Source: a virus. From it: 38,831 bases of DNA. The notes beneath the pieces are model-generated. The model was not told where the DNA came from, made no database searches, and saw only the letters and a program-made list of their open reading frames with translations. Both the position numbers and the translations under genes were made by a program. Numbering within the stretch: position 1 is the first letter of the stretch; the number at the start of each line of letters is the position of its first letter. Shown here piece after piece: positions 3,001 to 38,831 of this stretch. The stretch covers positions 1 to 38,831 of the IMG/VR virus record IMGVR_UViG_3300034682_000435. One strand, 5' to 3'.

Positions 3001-3076
3001 GGCCCCTTAGCTCAGTGGTTAGAGCAGGCGACTCATAATCGCTTGGTCGCTGGTTCAAGTCCAGCAGGGGCCACCA
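3001..3076 (+). tRNA. ileX: tRNA-Ile2 (anticodon CAU, expected to be modified to lysidine)
   Basis: A complete 76-nt cloverleaf with encoded CCA. The acceptor arms GGCCCCT and AGGGGCC pair, the anticodon loop is CTCATAA, and the T loop is TTCAAGT. The sequence matches my memory of E. coli ileX, a CAU tRNA whose C34 is converted to lysidine by TilS so that it reads AUA. It lies in the conserved rpoD-mug-ileX order. Its 3' half is the prophage integration target and is duplicated at 32937-32987. Confidence 0.95.
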
Positions 3077-3080
3077 AATT
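3030..3080. other. attL of prophage 1 (51-bp direct repeat in ileX 3' half)
   Basis: Bases 3030-3080 (GACTCATAATCG ... CCACCAAATT) recur without mismatch at 32937-32987. The repeat starts in the anticodon stem and runs just past the CCA end, so the tRNA is kept whole after integration. The sequences diverge at both ends of the repeat. Confidence 0.93.
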
Positions 3081-3102
3081 TTAGCTTTAGAATCATATAA
3101 TT

Positions 3103-3129
3103 AAGCCACTCTAGCGAGTGGCTTTTTTG
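3103..3129 (+). terminator. rho-independent terminator after ileX
   Basis: Stem AGCCACTC (3104-3111) / GAGTGGCT (3116-3123) with a 4-base loop, followed by T6. A close relative with a different stem follows attR at 33011-33040. Confidence 0.9.
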
Positions 3130-3145
3130 TTTATGGTTTCATCGT

Positions 3146-29393: not shown

Positions 29394-29903
29394 TCAGATC
29401 AGACCGAACGAAGCGCCGAGGCCCGTCACGGTATCCACCGCGCTTGCCATCGCCGGGTTGGCCTGTAAACGCGCCTGCATCGAAACGGCAGCCAGTGCCA
29501 TCAGACGAGTAACAGAGTTAATGCTGCTGATAACATCGCGGCGGCCTGCGGTGGTTTTCACATCACCCGATACGGCACCGGCAGCAACACGTCCGATTTC
29601 AGCAGTAGCGCTCATGACGTAATGCGGCAGCTTCTCTTTTGCCACTTCGTTCATCGGCACGCATGGCAGGCAGTGAATCTGGGCCAGAAAACCGTCAACC
29701 AGCGTGGAGTCCTCAGTAAGATCGGTAAGCAGCCAGATTTCCGACGGCGTGAGCTGATGCGGTTGCTCCGGGTTCAGTTTGTTACGCAGCGTCTGGACGT
29801 TCATCCCCGCACGTTCTGCAAGCTTCGCCATGTTGTGACGCAGCGCAAAAGCCCGGCAGGCTTCGTCAAAATGCGGATGTTTGGAAACACGATAATCAAA
29901 CAT
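29394..29903 (-). CDS. cII: CII-type lysogeny regulator (186 family)
   Basis: 169 aa. The N-terminus MFDYRVSKHPHFDEACRAFALRHNMAKLAERAGMNVQTLRNKLNPEQPHQLTP... has a helix-turn-helix near residues 22-45, and a tetramerising C-terminal half follows. In 186 CII activates cI from pE to establish lysogeny. A homologue, broken by a stop codon, is present at 36129-36632. Confidence 0.91.
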   Translation of the reverse strand: MFDYRVSKHPHFDEACRAFALRHNMAKLAERAGMNVQTLRNKLNPEQPHQLTPSEIWLLTDLTEDSTLVDGFLAQIHCLPCVPMNEVAKEKLPHYVMSATAEIGRVAAGAVSGDVKTTAGRRDVISSINSVTRLMALAAVSMQARLQANPAMASAVDTVTGLGASFGLI

Positions 29904-29937: not shown

Positions 29938-30174
29938 TCAGGCTTGCATTGCGACTTCGCAGCCTTGGGCCGCTTCCATCGTCAACGCGAACATGTTGAT
30001 TTCGATAAGGCTGTTAACTCCGGCTTTTTTCCTGATAGGCAGGCGGTTTTCCCGGATCATTTGACGGGCATAGCTTGGCTTATAACCAGTACGGCGACAG
30101 AACTCATCCAGTGTGATGAATGGCTCAGATACCACAAGGTTGATGCTGGGGCGCATTGAAAAATTGCTTTTCAT
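29938..30174 (-). CDS. cox: Cox/Apl-type excisionase and lytic repressor
   Basis: 78 aa with a MerR/excisionase-like winged helix (FITLDEFCRRTGYKPSYARQMIRENRLPIRKKAG). In P2 Cox and in 186 Apl block the lysogenic promoter and direct excision. First gene of the early operon. The start at 30174 has GAGGAA 9 bases upstream. Direct 10-bp repeats at 30211-30240 and similar ones near attR are its likely targets. Confidence 0.9.
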   Translation of the reverse strand: MKSNFSMRPSINLVVSEPFITLDEFCRRTGYKPSYARQMIRENRLPIRKKAGVNSLIEINMFALTMEAAQGCEVAMQA

Positions 30175-30253: not shown

Positions 30254-30282
30254 ATGATAGGATCGCATTTTAAATATGTCAA
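30254..30282 (-). promoter_or_regulatory. early lytic promoter pR
   Basis: On the minus strand a perfect -35 TTGACA (30277-30282), a 17-bp spacer and -10 TATCAT (30254-30259). It points into cox, starts near 30247, and overlaps the cI start codon on the other strand. The phased repeats lie just downstream in its leader. Confidence 0.85.
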
Positions 30283-30890
30283 ACACAAAAGAGACCCTTT
30301 CCGCGATCTCAAAATACAACTTTCCATCTCAAAGTGGTGGAAAGGAAGCGATAACACGTATCCTCCAGGCCTATGGATTCAGTACCAGACAGGCTTTGTG
30401 CGATCACCTTGGGGTATCCCAGAGCACTATGGCAAACCGTTGGATGCGCGATACTTTTCCACATGATTGGCTCATTGCCTGCCATCTTGATACAGGTGCA
30501 TCTATGCTTTGGTTAACTACAGGACAAGGCTTGCCCACAACAAAAGCAGATAGCGACAGTGGATTGCCTTTGCAATTAAAAGAAATCTCAAACGGGATTT
30601 TTTCATCCTCTGACCAAGTTCGCTACGACTCTCGCCTTTTACCTCAAGACACAACTGCCCCATTCATTGTGAAGTTTGAAAATTCGTTCTATCTAGTGGA
30701 CGAGTTCAGGGGAGAGATCAACGATGGAATCTGGTTGATTGAAATAGATGGCTTTATGAGTATCAGACAGGTTTACCGTCTTCCAGGCGGACGTTTACGC
30801 GTAGAAAATGGCCCCGCATCCTTTGAGTGCACACCATCGGATATTGAAGCCAATGGCAGAGTGATCAGCAAAATAACGTTTACTGAATAA
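30276..30890 (+). CDS. cI: CI-type phage repressor (186 family)
   Basis: 204 aa. The helix-turn-helix is near residues 38-62 (RQALCDHLGVSQSTMANRWMRDTFP), followed by the family motif WLIACHLDTGASMLWLTTGQG and a strand-rich oligomerisation domain (IWLIEIDGFMSIRQVYRLPGGRLRV). It should hold pR off and maintain the lysogen. There is no strong Shine-Dalgarno (AGGA is 12 bases away). Start of the cI-BRCT gene-int operon. Confidence 0.92.
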   Translation: MSNTKETLSAISKYNFPSQSGGKEAITRILQAYGFSTRQALCDHLGVSQSTMANRWMRDTFPHDWLIACHLDTGASMLWLTTGQGLPTTKADSDSGLPLQLKEISNGIFSSSDQVRYDSRLLPQDTTAPFIVKFENSFYLVDEFRGEINDGIWLIEIDGFMSIRQVYRLPGGRLRVENGPASFECTPSDIEANGRVISKITFTE

Positions 30891-30901
30891 GGAATATTGG
30901 T

Positions 30902-31801
30902 ATGACTCAATTTAGCGCTTTCAACTATACACACAATAGAGATAAAGCCATCGCTAACTTAATCAACCTAATTGAAGGGATGACCTGTGACGGGAAACTA
31001 AGTGAAAAAGAAATGATTTTCCTTGATACGTGGCTGATGGAATCAGACGTTCTTTCCCAAAATTATTTCGTAAACTGCATCAGAAATAAAATAAGTGAAA
31101 TCCTTTCGGATGGTGTAGTTGAAAAAGCTGAATTAGACGAATTGAAAGACCTGCTCCATGAAATGCAACGCGGATTGATGGATACTCCTAACATAGACCT
31201 TTACTCAGCTGACTCTGACAAGCATTTGCTAGAGGGTCTATGTAAGGGGCTTGCTTCCGACTATCATTTGAGCGATGAAGAAATCAGCTATTTAAACTGG
31301 TTCTTATCTACAAATGCAGCTTTAAAAAGCAACTATCCCGGCAAACATCTTTACGAACTGGTTCAATCAATCCTGAGTGATGGGGTGATCACAGACGAAG
31401 AACGCACCAAATTATTACAAGAAATTACTGCTTTCACTGGCTCAAATATTTCTGAGGGTATTGTGGATGGATATTCCACAACATCACCTGTTGACCTAAT
31501 TGATGAGTTTAACCCTACAGATAGTAAAGTCTGTCTCACTGGTAAGTTTCTATGTGGCTCCCGTAGACAATGTGAAAGTGACCTTTTAAAGCTTGGCTGC
31601 CAAATTGTTGATCGTGTTACTCAAGATTTGGACTATCTAATTATTGGTGCCCTCAGCTCTAAGGATTGGAAATTTCAAAGCTTCGGAAGAAAGATAGAAC
31701 AGGCTATTGATTATCGTGACAATAAAGGAGTTCCGCTCAAAATCCTCAGTGAAGAACACTGGCAAACCTTAATGCGTGATAATAATTCTATATCTCAATA
31801 G
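30902..31801 (+). CDS. TerB-like repeat plus C-terminal BRCT domain protein, accessory cargo
   Basis: 299 aa. Residues 13-180 are all-helical, with four acidic turns of the form [C/S]-D-[G/Y]-x-[L/V/I]-x-x-x-E. Their Asp residues are D30, D70, D120 and D160, so two 40-residue repeats stand 90 apart, resembling TerB-like helical domains. Residues 208-292 are a BRCT domain like that of NAD-dependent DNA ligase (VCLTGKFLCGSRRQCESDLL, DLDYLIIG, SEEHWQTLM), with no ligase domains. The gene is AT-rich against its neighbours and lies 11 bases after cI and 9 before int. I infer lysogenic conversion or defence cargo; a DNA-repair or nuclease partner role is possible. AGGA is 9 bases upstream of ATG. 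Confidence 0.8.
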   Translation: MTQFSAFNYTHNRDKAIANLINLIEGMTCDGKLSEKEMIFLDTWLMESDVLSQNYFVNCIRNKISEILSDGVVEKAELDELKDLLHEMQRGLMDTPNIDLYSADSDKHLLEGLCKGLASDYHLSDEEISYLNWFLSTNAALKSNYPGKHLYELVQSILSDGVITDEERTKLLQEITAFTGSNISEGIVDGYSTTSPVDLIDEFNPTDSKVCLTGKFLCGSRRQCESDLLKLGCQIVDRVTQDLDYLIIGALSSKDWKFQSFGRKIEQAIDYRDNKGVPLKILSEEHWQTLMRDNNSISQ

Positions 31802-31810
31802 GCCTGCAGA

Positions 31811-32824
31811 ATGGCAGTAAGCAAATTAAGCAATGGAAAGTGGCAGGCTCAGGTCTTCCCCAACGGTAGGGATGGGCGGCGTATTCGTCGCCAATTCGCC
31901 ACCAAAGGGGAAGCCATGGCCTTTGAACGCCACATTAAGGATCAAGCACAGGATAAGCCTTGGTTAGGAGAGAAAGCAGATAAGCGACGGGTTACAGACC
32001 TTGTTGAAACTTGGTTCAATGCTCATGGAGTTACACTCTCTGATGGCCTCAAGCGTAAGGGGGCGATGGAGTTTGCCTGCTTCGCCATGGGCAACCCTCT
32101 TGCAACTGAATTTAACGCCAAGCTTTTTGCAACCTACCGTGAGCAACGTTTAAGCGGGAAAATTACACGTTCTGATCGGGTAAAAGCAGTGACACCCCGC
32201 ACCGTTAATCTTGAGCTGGCGTATTTCCGCGCCATGTTCAACGAACTGAAAAGGCTGGATGACTGGAGTGCGCCCAATCCGCTCGAAAACGTCCGGGAAT
32301 TTAAAATTGATGAGGCAGAGCTGGCCTGGCTCACAGTCGAAGAAGTCAAGCAACTGCTGGCAGAGTGTGAGAAAAGTAAAGCGGTAGATTTAGTAACCAT
32401 CGTCAAAATATGCCTTGCAACCGGCGCACGATGGGGCGAGGCGGAGTCACTAACAGGCAAGCAAATAAGCCCCGGCAAAATCACTTATATCAAAACCAAG
32501 GGCAAGAAAAACCGCGCCGTTCCAATAAGTGATGAGCTTTACGAAATACTCCCAAAAGTAAGAACATCAAAACCAGTCTTTACGGGGTGCTATTCTGCGT
32601 TTCGTGGGGCAATTAAGCGAGCGGGGATTGAGCTACCTGACGGGCAGCTGTCACACGTTCTACGGCACACATTTGCAAGCCACTTTATGATGCGCGGGGG
32701 TAACATTCTTGTACTGCAGCGTATCCTTGGACATACTGATATTAAGGTGACGATGCGCTATGCTCATTTCGCCCCAGACCATCTGACAGAAGCAGTGGAG
32801 TACAACCCCTTAAATCTGATTTGA
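31811..32824 (+). CDS. int: tyrosine integrase of prophage 1
   Basis: 337 aa, P2-type site-specific recombinase. The arm-binding N-terminus is MAVSKLSNGKWQAQVFPNGRDGRRIRRQF. Catalytic residues are R207 (GARWGEA), K232 region, H282-x-x-R285 (HVLRH), H308 (LGHTD) and nucleophile Y317 (MRYAHF). It sits beside attR and should recombine the 51-bp core in ileX. Intact, so the prophage may excise. Confidence 0.96.
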   Translation: MAVSKLSNGKWQAQVFPNGRDGRRIRRQFATKGEAMAFERHIKDQAQDKPWLGEKADKRRVTDLVETWFNAHGVTLSDGLKRKGAMEFACFAMGNPLATEFNAKLFATYREQRLSGKITRSDRVKAVTPRTVNLELAYFRAMFNELKRLDDWSAPNPLENVREFKIDEAELAWLTVEEVKQLLAECEKSKAVDLVTIVKICLATGARWGEAESLTGKQISPGKITYIKTKGKKNRAVPISDELYEILPKVRTSKPVFTGCYSAFRGAIKRAGIELPDGQLSHVLRHTFASHFMMRGGNILVLQRILGHTDIKVTMRYAHFAPDHLTEAVEYNPLNLI

Positions 32825-32936: not shown

Positions 32937-32987
32937 GACTCATAATCGCTTGGTCGCTGGTTCAAGTCCAGCAGGGGCCACCAAATT
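32937..32987. other. attR of prophage 1 / probable attL of prophage 2
   Basis: Exact 51-bp copy of 3030-3080 (ileX 3' half with CCA). The 5' half of the tRNA is absent here. Phage-type sequence continues on the right side, which suggests a tandem second prophage using the same site. Confidence 0.92.
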
Positions 32988-33010
32988 AAAGCAATAAATA
33001 CATGCACTTA

Positions 33011-33040
33011 GGCCACTCTCGAGAGTGGCCTTTTTGTTTT
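33011..33040 (+). terminator. rho-independent terminator after attR
   Basis: A perfect 10-bp inverted repeat GGCCACTCTC/GAGAGTGGCC (33011-33030), then T5. It occupies the same place relative to the tRNA core as the ileX terminator at 3103. Confidence 0.9.
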
Positions 33041-33175: not shown

Positions 33176-33937
33176 TCACCTGAACAATTTTGCTTGGGCT
33201 GTGTTTATGCTACCAACGTATGATGCAATGCCTTTACGTTCATGGGGATTTTTGCTGGAAATAAATGCCTGTAAAAATTCAACGATTCTTTTTGACGTTA
33301 CACGTAGTGAGTTTTGGCTAAGCTCGAGGTTAAAAACGTTAACCATCAAGGAAGGAGGCTGGGTTTTGTTTTCATTGACGGTATAGCCGGATCTTCTTAT
33401 AGCTTCAAGAATAATATCAAAAGCATTCTCCAACTGACCAAGATCATCACTTGAAAGCAAAATGTCATCCATGAAAATGCTCACCGATACATGGCCTGAT
33501 TTGCTGACAGTATTGATGGTACTCCCACAAAATGATTGGTGAAAACATAAGCTGGCTAATATTGGTGACTGCGGATAACCGTATGGGATTACATGCTTTA
33601 ACCCATTACCATTGAGGTTTTTCACAGTCGATAGCCGGGCAATTTCTCTCGCCTTTACATATGGAATTAACCGCCCAAGCTCCCTTGTAACGCGGCTTTG
33701 GCTCGTAGCTCCAAAAAAATTGGATATATCAATCAGGCTAAAATATTTCTTTTTAATATGATAGTTAGCCGCAGCAACATGCCCACCTTCTCTGAGATGA
33801 AACATATAAAGCGGTGACTTCCATTTGTGTTTGATATAGGTGTGTATTTTTTGTCCTAAGTGATGTGTTTCGGCATCAGGAATGTAAACCCAACGATTTT
33901 CCTTAACCTCAAATTTATGTAGCCATGTTGGTTTCAT
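33176..33937 (-). CDS. small reverse transcriptase, probable defence-type RT
   Basis: A 253-aa RNA-templated DNA polymerase with fingers and palm only and no fused C-terminal enzyme. Visible motifs are FHLREGGHVAAANYHIKKKYF (RT2-like), motif A SLIDISNFFGATS with D70, motif B IPYGYPQSPILASLCF (118-133), motif C SIFMDDILLSSDD with catalytic D157-D158, and motif D GYTVNENKTQ (K191). Motif C is FMDD rather than the usual YxDD. I see no retron VTG motif. It resembles the UG/DRT and Abi groups, many of which block phages; the exact group cannot be assigned. The start has no Shine-Dalgarno and lies 23 bases inside the preceding small ORF, so translation is probably coupled. AT-rich. Confidence 0.88.
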   Translation of the reverse strand: MKPTWLHKFEVKENRWVYIPDAETHHLGQKIHTYIKHKWKSPLYMFHLREGGHVAAANYHIKKKYFSLIDISNFFGATSQSRVTRELGRLIPYVKAREIARLSTVKNLNGNGLKHVIPYGYPQSPILASLCFHQSFCGSTINTVSKSGHVSVSIFMDDILLSSDDLGQLENAFDIILEAIRRSGYTVNENKTQPPSLMVNVFNLELSQNSLRVTSKRIVEFLQAFISSKNPHERKGIASYVGSINTAQAKLFR

Positions 33938-35812: not shown

Positions 35813-36132
35813 CAGCGCATCCCGTTATGTTCCAGGCTGAAGTGATTACCAGCCGGACGGGATTTGAAACGCCCGCCCCACGTTCCGCCCAGCGATTCCC
35901 AGTATTCACCCAGCGGCAGATAATCAGCCGTGTCCGTTTTGTACTGGCCATTCACGTACAGGTTAAAATCCACGGCCAGACGCTGTGTGTGCAGACTGTT
36001 GGTGATACCGCTGCCTTTTTTAGCGTTCAGCGCCGCCTGTTCCGGCGTACGGTACGCCTCGCCAAAAGTCAGGCGATAGCCATGCTCTTCAGCCCAGTGG
36101 ATCAGAATGGCCACCATCACGGTAACCCTCAC
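35812..36132 (-). pseudogene. M15-type peptidoglycan peptidase (endolysin), N-terminus missing
   Basis: 106 codons. GYRLTFGEAYRTPEQA, GSGITNSLHTQRLAVDFNLYVNG and RPAGNHFSLEHNG hold the M15/VanY-like metal and catalytic residues (H in SLHTQR, D in AVDF, H in NHFSLEH). The frame begins VTVMVA at a GTG within the end of cII, so about 8-10 N-terminal residues are missing. The catalytic core is otherwise complete; a short active form from GTG 36132 cannot be ruled out. Confidence 0.72.
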
Positions 36133-36632
36133 ATCATGCTACTGGCGCTGTTAGTCACGATATCGACGGCAGCAGCAAGAACCGGCGCAGACTGGAGGCG
36201 GCTTTCAACGGTGTAAGCCAGAACGGAAAGGGAACGGATGGCATCACGGGCACGATCAAGAATTTGTGTGCAGCGTGCGGCGGTCATGTGCTCAGTTGAA
36301 ACGGCTTCCCCAGCGATTGCCCTCACATTGGCGGCGGCACTTAACGCGCAAAACTGCATGTTGGCTTCAATGGCGTTATTGACAGGAACGGACGGGAGGC
36401 TGTTAATCTGCCCCAGCATTCTATCCAATAGCCGCGAATCTTCGGTGTAATCGGTGATAGCCAAAAGCTCATCGCAGGTCAGGCGGTGCGGTTGAACCGG
36501 ATTTAACTTATTGCGGAGGATCTGCGGACGCATACCAACGGCAGCAGCTACATCTTCCAGATTGTGCGCTAGCGCAAACGCTCAGCAAGCAGCATCAAAA
36601 TGAGCATGTTTAGAAGTCTGATAATCAAACAT
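36129..36632 (-). pseudogene. CII-type regulator with a nonsense codon at position 17
   Basis: Starting at ATG 36632 the frame reads MFDYQTSKHAHFDAAC, then TGA (36582-36584), then AFALAHNLEDVAAAVGMRPQILRNKL... The homologue at 29394-29903 has ...EACRAFALRHN here, so an Arg codon (CGA to TGA) was lost. A restart at the internal ATG 36533 would lack the first helix. The C-terminus abuts the truncated endolysin, marking a large deletion. Confidence 0.85.
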
Positions 36633-36662
36633 TGTTAGCTCCTCCCTAATCCGTAGGATGAA

Positions 36663-36884
36663 TTACGCGTTAAGCGAAACATCGCATTCGCTTAACGCCA
36701 TTACGGTTAAGGTGACCATGTTCACTTCAACCAGCCCTTTTTTCTGTGCACCTTTAGGCTTGATAGGGAGTTTTCCGTAGGAAATCAAATTCTCAGCAGT
36801 ACTTCGCGACATGCCAGTACGGCGGCAATATGCATCAAGTGGAATGTATGGATCGGGGATCACGATTGTAATGTTGGGACGCAT
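36663..36884 (-). CDS. Cox/Apl-type protein of prophage 2
   Basis: 73 aa from ATG 36884 (MRPNITIVIPDPYIPLDAYCRRTGMSRSTAENLISYGKLP), with AGGAG upstream; the longer frame to 36986 crosses the control region. It shares the winged-helix DAYCRRTG...LPI core with the protein at 29938 but differs elsewhere, so its operator is probably different. Confidence 0.85.
   Translation of the reverse strand: MRPNITIVIPDPYIPLDAYCRRTGMSRSTAENLISYGKLPIKPKGAQKKGLVEVNMVTLTVMALSECDVSLNA
36667..36698. promoter_or_regulatory. 12-bp perfect inverted repeat within the end of cox
   Basis: GCGTTAAGCGAA (36667-36678) and TTCGCTTAACGC (36687-36698), 8-base spacer. There is no T-run, so it is not a classic terminator. 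The half-site TTAAGCGA also occurs in the switch dyad at 36971-36983, about 300 bp away. Possible distal CI operator. Confidence 0.5.
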
Positions 36885-36903
36885 AATGCAAACTCCTCTT
36901 GCT

Positions 36904-37012
36904 GTGGATACGCCAATATCCACTGTTATTAACCTATACTCGTAAAAAGCTACAACAAGGAGAGTCCAGATCGCATTAAGCGACAAATAAATCGATTTAT
37001 CGCATTTTGCGA
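36904..37012. promoter_or_regulatory. lysis-lysogeny switch region of prophage 2
   Basis: Between cox and cI are two dyads of one type, TCGC-ATTAA-GCGA (36971-36983) and TCGC-ATTTT-GCGA (37000-37012), 29 bp apart or close to three helical turns. There is also GTGGATA...TATCCAC (36904-36923). The two TCGC dyads are probable CI operators. The repeats differ from those of prophage 1. Promoters could not be assigned with confidence. Confidence 0.6.
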
Positions 37013-37027
37013 AAACCTGACTAAATT

Positions 37028-37609
37028 ATGGGCAAATTCTCTTACGGACAAATCAGCCACAGCAATGAAGTACTCGACAGAGTGATTAATGCTTATGGCT
37101 TTACGTCTAAGCTGATGCTTGCCGATCACTTTGGAATGGCATCGAGTAGCCTGGCTGGACGCTACAAACGAGGCGGCTTTCCCGCTGACATGGTAGTTAG
37201 GTGTGTAGCTGAAACTGGCGCATCGTTAGAATGGCTTGCTACTGGTCAAGACAGGAAATTTGACGACGAAGAACTCGACATTATAAAAATGCCTCGTCGA
37301 AAAATCGTTGATGGCCTTCTTTACGATGCTGGCAGGTACATGTTGGATAAGGTCTCATTCCTCCCGGGAGTCCCTTTACCTAAGTCCCCAATCTGCGTCC
37401 AGGAAGGTAATAGCCAATTTATCGTGGATACCTTATTTACTGAGGTTTATGACGATCAGTGGTTGGTTGAAATTGAAGGTAAAATAAGCATTTGCACACT
37501 TACCCGCATCCCAATTAAGAAAGTCAGAGTAAGTGGCGTCGGCATGGCCTTTGATTGTGCAATAGAAGATATAAAAATTCTTTGTAGGGTTGTATTAACA
37601 ATAAGATAA
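37028..37609 (+). CDS. CI-type repressor of prophage 2
   Basis: 193 aa. The helix-turn-helix is near residues 27-50 (KLMLADHFGMASSSLAGRYKRGGFP), then VVRCVAETGASLEWLATGQ and a C-terminal domain DDQWLVEIEGKISICTLTRIPI. Same family as the repressor at 30276 but clearly diverged. Intact, so the remnant may still confer immunity. No strong Shine-Dalgarno. Confidence 0.9.
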   Translation: MGKFSYGQISHSNEVLDRVINAYGFTSKLMLADHFGMASSSLAGRYKRGGFPADMVVRCVAETGASLEWLATGQDRKFDDEELDIIKMPRRKIVDGLLYDAGRYMLDKVSFLPGVPLPKSPICVQEGNSQFIVDTLFTEVYDDQWLVEIEGKISICTLTRIPIKKVRVSGVGMAFDCAIEDIKILCRVVLTIR

Positions 37610-37625
37610 GCATAAGGATTTGAAG

Positions 37626-38192
37626 ATGATTGACTACAAAACAGCATCAAAAGACCAACTCAAAGCGGAGATGAAACGCTTAGCTGGCGTTGTATCTGAC
37701 ACGCCCTTTGGTACAAAAAAAGAATTCTTTCACCTCCCTGAAATTTTGAACTCGGGCGAACGTCCGGTGGCCATTGCCAGTGGCATGATGGACGGCAACA
37801 CCTGGCTCATCACACTGACAAATAAACGCGTAATTTTCCTTGATAAGGGCATGATTTTTGGTGTTAAGCAGGTTGACATCAACCTCAACAACATTGTGAG
37901 CGTAGGCGGCAAGACGGGGCTTATGTTTGGTGAAATTATGATTTCTACTAGCGGCCAAAACTACACAATCAAAAATGTCATGAAAGGCTCAGTTATACCC
38001 TTCACAAATTTAGTGAACGAAACAAAAAACTCTCTGAATGCTCCTGCCTCGCAACAACAAGAACCGACCAAAGACACTCAATCATTCGATGATCAAATGG
38101 CGAAAATTGAACGTCTTGCAAAAATGAAAGAAGAAGGGATTCTTACAGAAGAAGAATTCCAGCAGCAGAAAAAATTCATTTTGAATGGTTAA
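37626..38192 (+). CDS. PH-like plus SHOCT domain protein, accessory cargo
   Basis: 188 aa from ATG 37626 (MIDYKTASKDQLKAEMKRL), with AAGGA 7 bases upstream; a TTG two codons earlier is less likely. Residues about 35-130 look like a bacterial PH (YokE-like) domain (ERPVAIASGMMDGNTWLITLTNKRVIFLDKGMIFGVKQVDINLNNI). Residues about 155-187 are a SHOCT motif (IERLAKMKEEGILTEEEFQQQKKFIL). Function unknown. It lies between cI and int, where prophage 1 has the BRCT gene. Confidence 0.85.
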   Translation: MIDYKTASKDQLKAEMKRLAGVVSDTPFGTKKEFFHLPEILNSGERPVAIASGMMDGNTWLITLTNKRVIFLDKGMIFGVKQVDINLNNIVSVGGKTGLMFGEIMISTSGQNYTIKNVMKGSVIPFTNLVNETKNSLNAPASQQQEPTKDTQSFDDQMAKIERLAKMKEEGILTEEEFQQQKKFILNG

Positions 38193-38195
38193 TTT

Positions 38196-38831
38196 ATGTC
38201 TGTAAGAAAGTTAGCTTACGGCCAACGGGTTGCTGATTTTTACACTGTAGACAGAACTGATGGTAAAGACGGCAAGCGGGTTCGTAGGAAGTTTGTCACT
38301 AAAGGCGAAGCGCTGGCGTTTGAAAATTACACACTGCAAAAATTTGAGGACACGCCCTGGTTAGGCCAGGGCAAAGACAAACGTCGTCTTTCGGATATAG
38401 TCCATCTATGGTTTGAGCGCCATGGAATAACTTTGCGTGACGGCGAGAAACGTAAAAGCAACATGCTCTGGGCAGATCTGTGCATAGGGTCGCCCCCGGC
38501 TACTGAATTCTTAGCCCAGCTTTTCACCGCGTACCGGGCAAAAAGGCTCGATGGCCATTTTGCCCGTACTAAGCGCGTTACTCAGGTTTCGCCTCGCACC
38601 ATGAACTTAGAGCACGCGTATTTCCTCGCTGTGTTCAATGAATTGAAACGACTTGGCGAATGGGAAGCGCCAAACCCGCTAGATAACATTCGACAGTTCA
38701 GAACAGAAGAAAGTGAGATGGTCTTTCTTACTGGAGAGCAGATTGACAGTCTCTTAGAAGAAAGCCACCACAGCTCTGCTAAAGATTTGGAGATGATTGT
38801 CAGAATTTGCCTGGCTACTAGTGCTCGCTGA
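38196..38831 (+). pseudogene. tyrosine integrase of prophage 2, stops before the catalytic domain
   Basis: 211 codons aligned end to end with residues 1-207 of the integrase at 31811 (DGKRVRRKFVTKGEALAFE, PRTMNLEHAYFLAVFNELKRL). It ends ICLATSAR-TGA where the other has ICLATGARWGEAESL, so a TGG-to-TGA change at the Trp just after the first catalytic Arg is the simplest reading. The stop is the last codon of the window. The H-x-x-R, H and Tyr boxes are absent from what can be seen. Confidence 0.8.

Follow-up and report, generated by a model that had tools for sequence, protein, structure and literature searches.

The viral DNA analysed here (the window, 38,831 nucleotides in full) carried a gene for a 299-aa protein, termed the repeat-BRCT gene below, that was located between the repressor and the integrase of a P2-like prophage. 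We found that this gene is exchangeable cargo of lysogeny modules, since one family recurred beside repressors that are unrelated to one another, in Enterobacterales, Vibrio, Pseudomonas and Firmicute phages. The protein combined acidic helical repeats with a BRCT domain. Our preferred, although tentative, reading is that of a repressor-coupled accessory protein that may bind 5'-phosphate ends or nicks in DNA, act via its repeats and most likely exclude other phages.

Position in the prophage and among phage relatives

The prophage was bounded by a pair of direct att-type repeats. The following features were located at its borders and around the repeat-BRCT gene:

3030-3132, no strand: left att-type repeat, overlapping tRNA-Met (3001-3076) and 86% identical to 32937-33039
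29394-29903, minus strand: CII-like regulator, assigned from the similarity of this stretch to CII of Fels-2 and SEN8
29938-30174, minus strand: Cox/Apl-like regulator, divergent from CI, assigned from its position and a weak HTH_17 match (0.015); present in the same place in most relatives
30276-30890, plus strand: CI-type prophage repressor (Pfam Phage_CI_repr 3.2e-27, Phage_CI_C 2.8e-22), ending 11 bp before the repeat-BRCT gene
30902-31801, plus strand: repeat-BRCT protein gene, an open reading frame of 299 aa with no catalytic ligase domain
31811-32824, plus strand: tyrosine integrase (Pfam Phage_integrase 4.5e-25), starting 9 bp after the repeat-BRCT gene
32937-33039, no strand: right att-type repeat, forming a direct 103-nt pair with the left one

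CI, the repeat-BRCT gene and the integrase were located on one strand, and the gaps of 11 bp and 9 bp represented operon-type spacing. This order, inside an att-bounded P2-like prophage, agreed with the sequence-only reading of the gene as prophage cargo in a repressor-int operon. We infer from it that the gene is probably transcribed together with CI in the lysogen; promoter and terminator scans gave results at chance level. The replication and CII part of the prophage resembled Fels-2, SEN8 and Klebsiella P2-like phages, and the best matches left the segment from CI through the gene to the integrase uncovered. The GC content of the gene was 38.8%, versus 45.0% for CI, 49.6% for the integrase and 56.2% for the phage core. 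Among five records of relatives, CI and the integrase were adjacent in Fels-2, SEN8, ST15-OXA48phi14.1 and SopEPhi, and the slot of KP12 held another gene. Since Fels-2 and three other near relatives had an empty slot, the gene was considered dispensable cargo.

In the 40 loci first fetched, a P2-type CI was directly upstream in 37 and an integrase directly downstream in 34. The integrase was replaced by two other genes in L033 and by an HNH endonuclease gene in L035 and L036 (L107 and L108 were the same contigs as these two). The Vibrio phages K139 and kappa had the gene order cI-orf2-glo-int, and their PL was annotated as 'transcription of lysogenic operon'. K139 Orf2 and kappa Kp3 (Longwoodvirus) were homologous to our protein (96% of the query, 32.4% identity) and likewise followed cI in the lysogenic operon; however, their sequence had diverged and glo intervened before int. 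Glo, the neighbour of K139 Orf2, is a phage-exclusion protein (PMC8537503; PMC3952083). In the D3-like Pseudomonas phages Marin and phi1, the gene was immediately 3' of the repressor, in PG1 it was one gene after an S24 repressor, and in lambdoid prophages it was placed tail to tail with cI. On contigs that we read as belonging to Firmicute-type phages, it followed an S24 repressor and preceded recombinases.

Altogether, 243 loci formed 89 clusters at 80% identity, and both neighbours were present in 87 of them. A repressor-like gene was directly adjacent in 47 of the 87 clusters (54%), compared with 6.9% of the 654 genes of these loci that served as controls, and was within two genes in 60 (69%) versus 19.3% of the controls; the loci were centred on the repeat-BRCT gene and the repressor models were seeded with genes adjoining it, which favours those genes. 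In the remaining 27 clusters, none of the genes up to two positions away was labelled as a repressor, and unlabelled HTH genes were seen by eye in some of them. On a tree of 86 rows (a short search without bootstrap, with two long rows), copies in the P2-type slot fell on separated branches; this context needed 4 changes, at least three of which were forced by starred branches.

At full length, the protein matched the family PHROG 3989 (E 1.4e-95), to which that library assigns function unknown. The dN/dS of the whole gene was 0.03-0.09 in the five unsaturated of 11 comparisons (the six saturated ones were dropped), indicating strong purifying selection. A blastn search of complete E. coli genomes with the gene returned zero matches. 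In the literature on the repeat-BRCT protein and on BRCT domains in lysogeny or defence, the titles and passages covered, which did not include the 1999 study of the K139 control region, gave no function for it.

Helical repeats and the BRCT domain

Three domains were delimited within the protein:

30938-31180, plus strand: helical repeat 1, residues 13-93, with acidic turns at D30 and D70 (AlphaFold2 helices and repeat alignment)
31208-31441, plus strand: helical repeat 2, residues 103-180, with acidic turns at D120 and D160 (AlphaFold2 helices and alignment)
31511-31786, plus strand: BRCT domain, residues 204-295, with pocket residues T213, G214, R221 and K264

The sequence-only reading had described four acidic turns at positions 30, 70, 120 and 160, an internal duplication of a 40-residue unit pair and a ligase-type BRCT domain without any ligase. 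All of this held. Each of the four Asp residues opened a D-x6-E turn between two helices (with E37, E77, E127 and E167), and the turns were mostly kept across the family. Among 86 aligned rows, D120 was Asp in 78 and Asn in 8, and D160 was Asp in 82; in the first repeat, D30 was Asp in all 38 rows having it and D70 in 37 of 39. Residues 20-88 and 110-178 could be aligned without gaps over 69 columns at 29% identity, with an hhalign score of 113.7 (P 2e-22) versus a top score of 23.8 in 30 column shuffles. The repeat unit was about 90 residues long and consisted of two helix pairs about 40 residues apart. AlphaFold2, which served as the structure prediction proposed with that reading, showed the repeats as two sets of four helices (13-28, 35-47, 55-68 and 75-93; 103-117, 125-136, 147-158 and 165-179) followed by the BRCT domain, with a mean pLDDT of 83.7 for the whole protein and 89.8 when the N-terminal part was modelled by itself. 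Short members of at most 260 aa made up half of the family (44 of 89 clusters), and the short ones that were aligned had a single repeat corresponding to repeat 2. The N-terminal model had no significant match among solved structures (the lowest Foldseek E was 0.71, and the highest VIA Z, 7.5, was to a repeat protein), and TerB structures were not among the rows.

The description of the repeats as TerB-like stood only in part. They shared with TerB (PF05099) the DG-x-h-x3-E turns, an all-helical domain and a weak profile similarity, the profile-profile score being 36.8 compared to at most 16.1 in 40 shuffles. Moreover, a TerB model made from 30 genome sequences matched 11 of 86 representatives at E <0.01. 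However, the curated Pfam TerB model did not detect the 299-aa protein itself, and it weakly matched 2 of 17 family members. The repeat half would be related to TerB only distantly, as far as profile comparison can tell.

Residues 202-293 had the fold of the LigA (DnlJ) BRCT domain (VIA Z 10.8, rmsd 2.0, 77 aligned). Sequence profiles matched the BRCT domains of Rad4, RFC1, LigA and a phage ligase subunit, and Pfam BRCT was found in 15 of 17 family members (best 2.4e-8). Although some records annotate relatives as NAD-dependent DNA ligase, the adenylation and OB domains of that enzyme were absent; matches in Pfam, NCBIfam and PHROG were only in the BRCT region, and a DNA ligase function was ruled out. 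Residues T213, G214, R221, G249, W256, G262 and K264 were invariant in all 86 aligned rows, and the pocket motif was present in 242 of 243 proteins; the one protein without it was a fragment located at the end of a contig. We take the T-G, R and K positions to be the BRCT phosphate pocket. RFC1 aligned at the T, the G and the R (Arg eight residues on), and the lysine was outside the aligned region of that match. The fold and the T-G/R pocket positions were common to our protein, the C-terminal BRCT domain of LigA and that of RFC1, but the repeat-BRCT protein had neither ligase nor clamp-loader domains and possessed an extra conserved GRKIE segment after W256. The isolated RFC1 BRCT domain favours 5'-phosphate DNA ends, which it binds in a deep groove with a Kd of about 10 nM (PMC9293009), and LigA without its BRCT domain loses DNA affinity (PMC10504179). 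BRCT domains are tied to breaks and damage and also read phosphoproteins (PMC10386641), so the pocket alone cannot decide between DNA and protein.

Distribution in genomes and neighbouring genes

The family was present in 11 of 295 genomes of the family group drawn round G001 and in 11 of 398 genomes phylum-wide. In a tally over the group round G001, a repressor was within two genes in 9 of the first 11 carriers. Among the 11 phylum-wide carriers, only G001 had the gene beside a repressor; the other ten had none within two genes, and one had an integrase within two genes. A repressor was within two genes in 14 of the 35 loci that came from genomes (with some genomes represented twice), so the link to repressors is overstated by the viral sample. 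Outside Enterobacterales, most genome-derived copies were solitary and had no adjoining repressor; solitary chromosomal copies were found, for example, in Aeromonas (L051, L052) and at L272 and L277. Whole genomes contradicted the assumption of an exclusively phage-borne gene. A housekeeping gene was ruled out as well by the patchy distribution, and homologues were not confined to housekeeping contexts, many of them being located beside prophage repressors. Close to one solitary chromosomal copy, there was a gene for a TIR-domain protein (1.4e-13; L279:2891-3562, minus strand).

A survey of neighbours for nucleases and defence genes, another check put forward with the sequence-only reading, found both, each kind being rare. 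With Pfam and PADLOC, we scanned 82 of 107 same-strand neighbours, chosen by eye, and used as controls 82 out of 170 genes picked at random in these loci. The neighbours included one each of Abi_alpha/PDC-S47, AbiTii, an HNH endonuclease, RelA_SpoT and DUF3800, an SNase-type nuclease in 3 of 82, and several PDC candidates; the control genes yielded three matches to DNA methyltransferases and single matches to DndB and REase_II. Because each kind of neighbour was rare, these matches hinted at a slot rich in defence genes, not at a fixed system.

Several neighbours can be noted individually. The Abi_alpha (PDC-S47) gene (L141:4887-5717) was inserted between the repeat-BRCT gene and the integrase. 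In one cassette, a second BRCT protein adjoined the repeat-BRCT gene; this protein of 392 aa (L121:2706-3884) matched BRCT and, weakly, WYL. BRCT and TerB domains have each been found fused to WYL domains in defence-linked proteins (PMC4012209). An unannotated family of 128-150 aa was the direct neighbour of the repeat-BRCT gene in one genome and in 5 of the 89 clusters (L188:3559-3945, L221:3579-3998, L229:4617-5003, L270:2137-2589, also L174 and L196); four tested members had no Pfam match, and the family was too infrequent to be a fixed partner. Finally, in a further immunity type of the P2-like kind, a small HTH regulator and the repeat-BRCT gene were separated by a 207-aa family (L045:7339-7962, with relatives in L119-L132) that ended in what appeared by eye to be a membrane-type helix.

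Proposed role and alternative readings

Lambda rex is an accessory gene linked to a phage repressor. Other accessory genes of repressor operons, such as 434 hex and the 933W kinase, are made in lysogens and usually exclude other phages (PMC3564112), and phage-exclusion systems are known to come from genes made together with the prophage repressor. The repeat-BRCT gene shared with these three its place in a repressor operon, as judged here from gene order and spacing, but the proteins were apparently unrelated. The sequence-only reading was partly supported overall, with the sensing of infecting DNA as its hypothetical part. Our proposal is that the gene is a mobile accessory gene, or moron, inserted between the repressor and the integrase of the P2-like prophage, and that its product would be made together with the repressor in the lysogen. 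The Thr-Gly/Arg/Lys pocket of the BRCT domain would grip the 5' phosphate presented by a DNA end, nick or gap, and the four-turn helical repeats may be the output part that binds a partner or blocks access. The protein would thereby hold or mark incompletely sealed DNA, either the cohesive ends of an entering phage before they are sealed by LigA or nicks formed in replication, and a rival phage would be excluded or delayed. Coupling to the repressor would switch the protein off at induction, a stage at which the phage has to nick and seal DNA of its own. With a likely ligand that can be named, a 'BRCT domain-containing protein' of unassigned role would become a testable reader of DNA ends or nicks, and K139 Orf2 would gain a hypothesis.

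Several observations counted against parts of this proposal. A dN/dS of 0.03-0.09 would be unusual for an arms-race protein, which speaks against exclusion. The pocket would fit phosphoprotein binding equally well. The phylum-wide sample, where one of 11 carriers had the gene beside a repressor, counts against a purely prophage role. A more far-reaching form of the proposal, which we hold to be unlikely, is a widespread repressor-coupled sentinel: its BRCT domain would read the 5'-phosphate ends or nicks of foreign phage genomes (unsealed cos ends, for example), and its acidic helical repeats would block sealing or mark the DNA for attack. If true, this would represent a DNA-end sensor for bacterial immunity that is made safe for the phage by its repressor-coupled switch-off.

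The alternative that survived best, with a probability that was still low, was an accessory of general DNA repair or host benefit, i.e., an end- or nick-binding adaptor aiding ligation, gap repair or replication restart from either a prophage or a chromosomal location. An intact pocket in a LigA-type BRCT domain would suit such an adaptor, as LigA's own BRCT domain contributes to DNA binding (PMC10504179), and so would the strong purifying selection and the solitary chromosomal copies (L051 and L052 of Aeromonas; L272, L277). However, a patchy presence (11 of 295 and 11 of 398 genomes) and recurrent siting next to the repressors of prophages, in several phage types that are unrelated, were unexpected for a repair gene, and Abi-type genes also occupied the slot.

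The same operon position in 434 suggested another possibility. There, hex is on the PRM-cI transcript, reduces RecA-stimulated cleavage of the repressor and also excludes P22 (PMC3564112). A prophage-stability factor of this kind, co-made with the repressor, might read DNA damage via its BRCT domain, in line with the link of such domains to breaks and damage (PMC10386641), and tune the repressor or the decision to induce, guarding the lysogen against needless induction. This was rather doubtful, since the gene accompanied unrelated repressors (CI of the Phage_CI_C type, cleavable repressors of the S24 type and a small HTH protein), and a clamp specific to one repressor is unlikely to travel so freely. 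Moreover, the solitary copies had no repressor alongside.

Two further readings were less likely than either the Hex-like guard or the repair adaptor. All 17 family members scanned matched the C-terminal part of the PADLOC candidate PDC-S48; in the 299-aa protein, residues 147-257 corresponded to positions 271-387 of 411, and the full-length profile was unmatched. The last repeat helices and the BRCT domain were common to both, but PDC-S48 had a further 270 positions in front, probably of exonuclease type, and the repeat-BRCT protein had none. The front of this profile matched proteins in 298 of 299 genomes, presumably DnaQ-type exonucleases, and the same BRCT domain was present in PRK06195, named DNA polymerase III subunit epsilon. 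The protein might imitate a host defence protein of the exonuclease-BRCT type, or act as its decoy, as a targeting half without the nuclease that blocks such a system. We considered this very unlikely: counter-defence is needed on entry, yet the gene belonged to a lysogenic operon; fusions were absent from the 11 phylum-wide genome matches (open frames of at most 346 aa); and PDC-S48 is only a candidate. The least probable reading was a helper of integration or excision that binds nicked recombination intermediates, suggested by the position directly before int here and in 34 of 40 close loci, because the gene was absent from Fels-2, SEN8, SopEPhi and ST15-OXA48phi14.1, and its relatives were found by cI without an adjacent integrase (lambdoid and Pseudomonas phages) or near serine recombinases.

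The window also contained genes outside the first prophage. Directly after it, a second P2-type immunity module (36129-38831) encoded CII, Cox, CI (37028-37609) and an integrase that was cut by the window end. The slot between CI and int of this module was occupied by a gene for a bPH_3-SHOCT protein (37620-38192), and a bPH-SHOCT gene was located directly after the repeat-BRCT gene in L039. Just outside the right att repeat, there was a reverse transcriptase of 253 aa (33176-33937, minus strand; RVT_1 6.8e-16, PADLOC RT_VI 3.4e-22), which matched the retron St85 model below its cut-off. The reverse transcriptase and the second immunity module also occurred together in L007.
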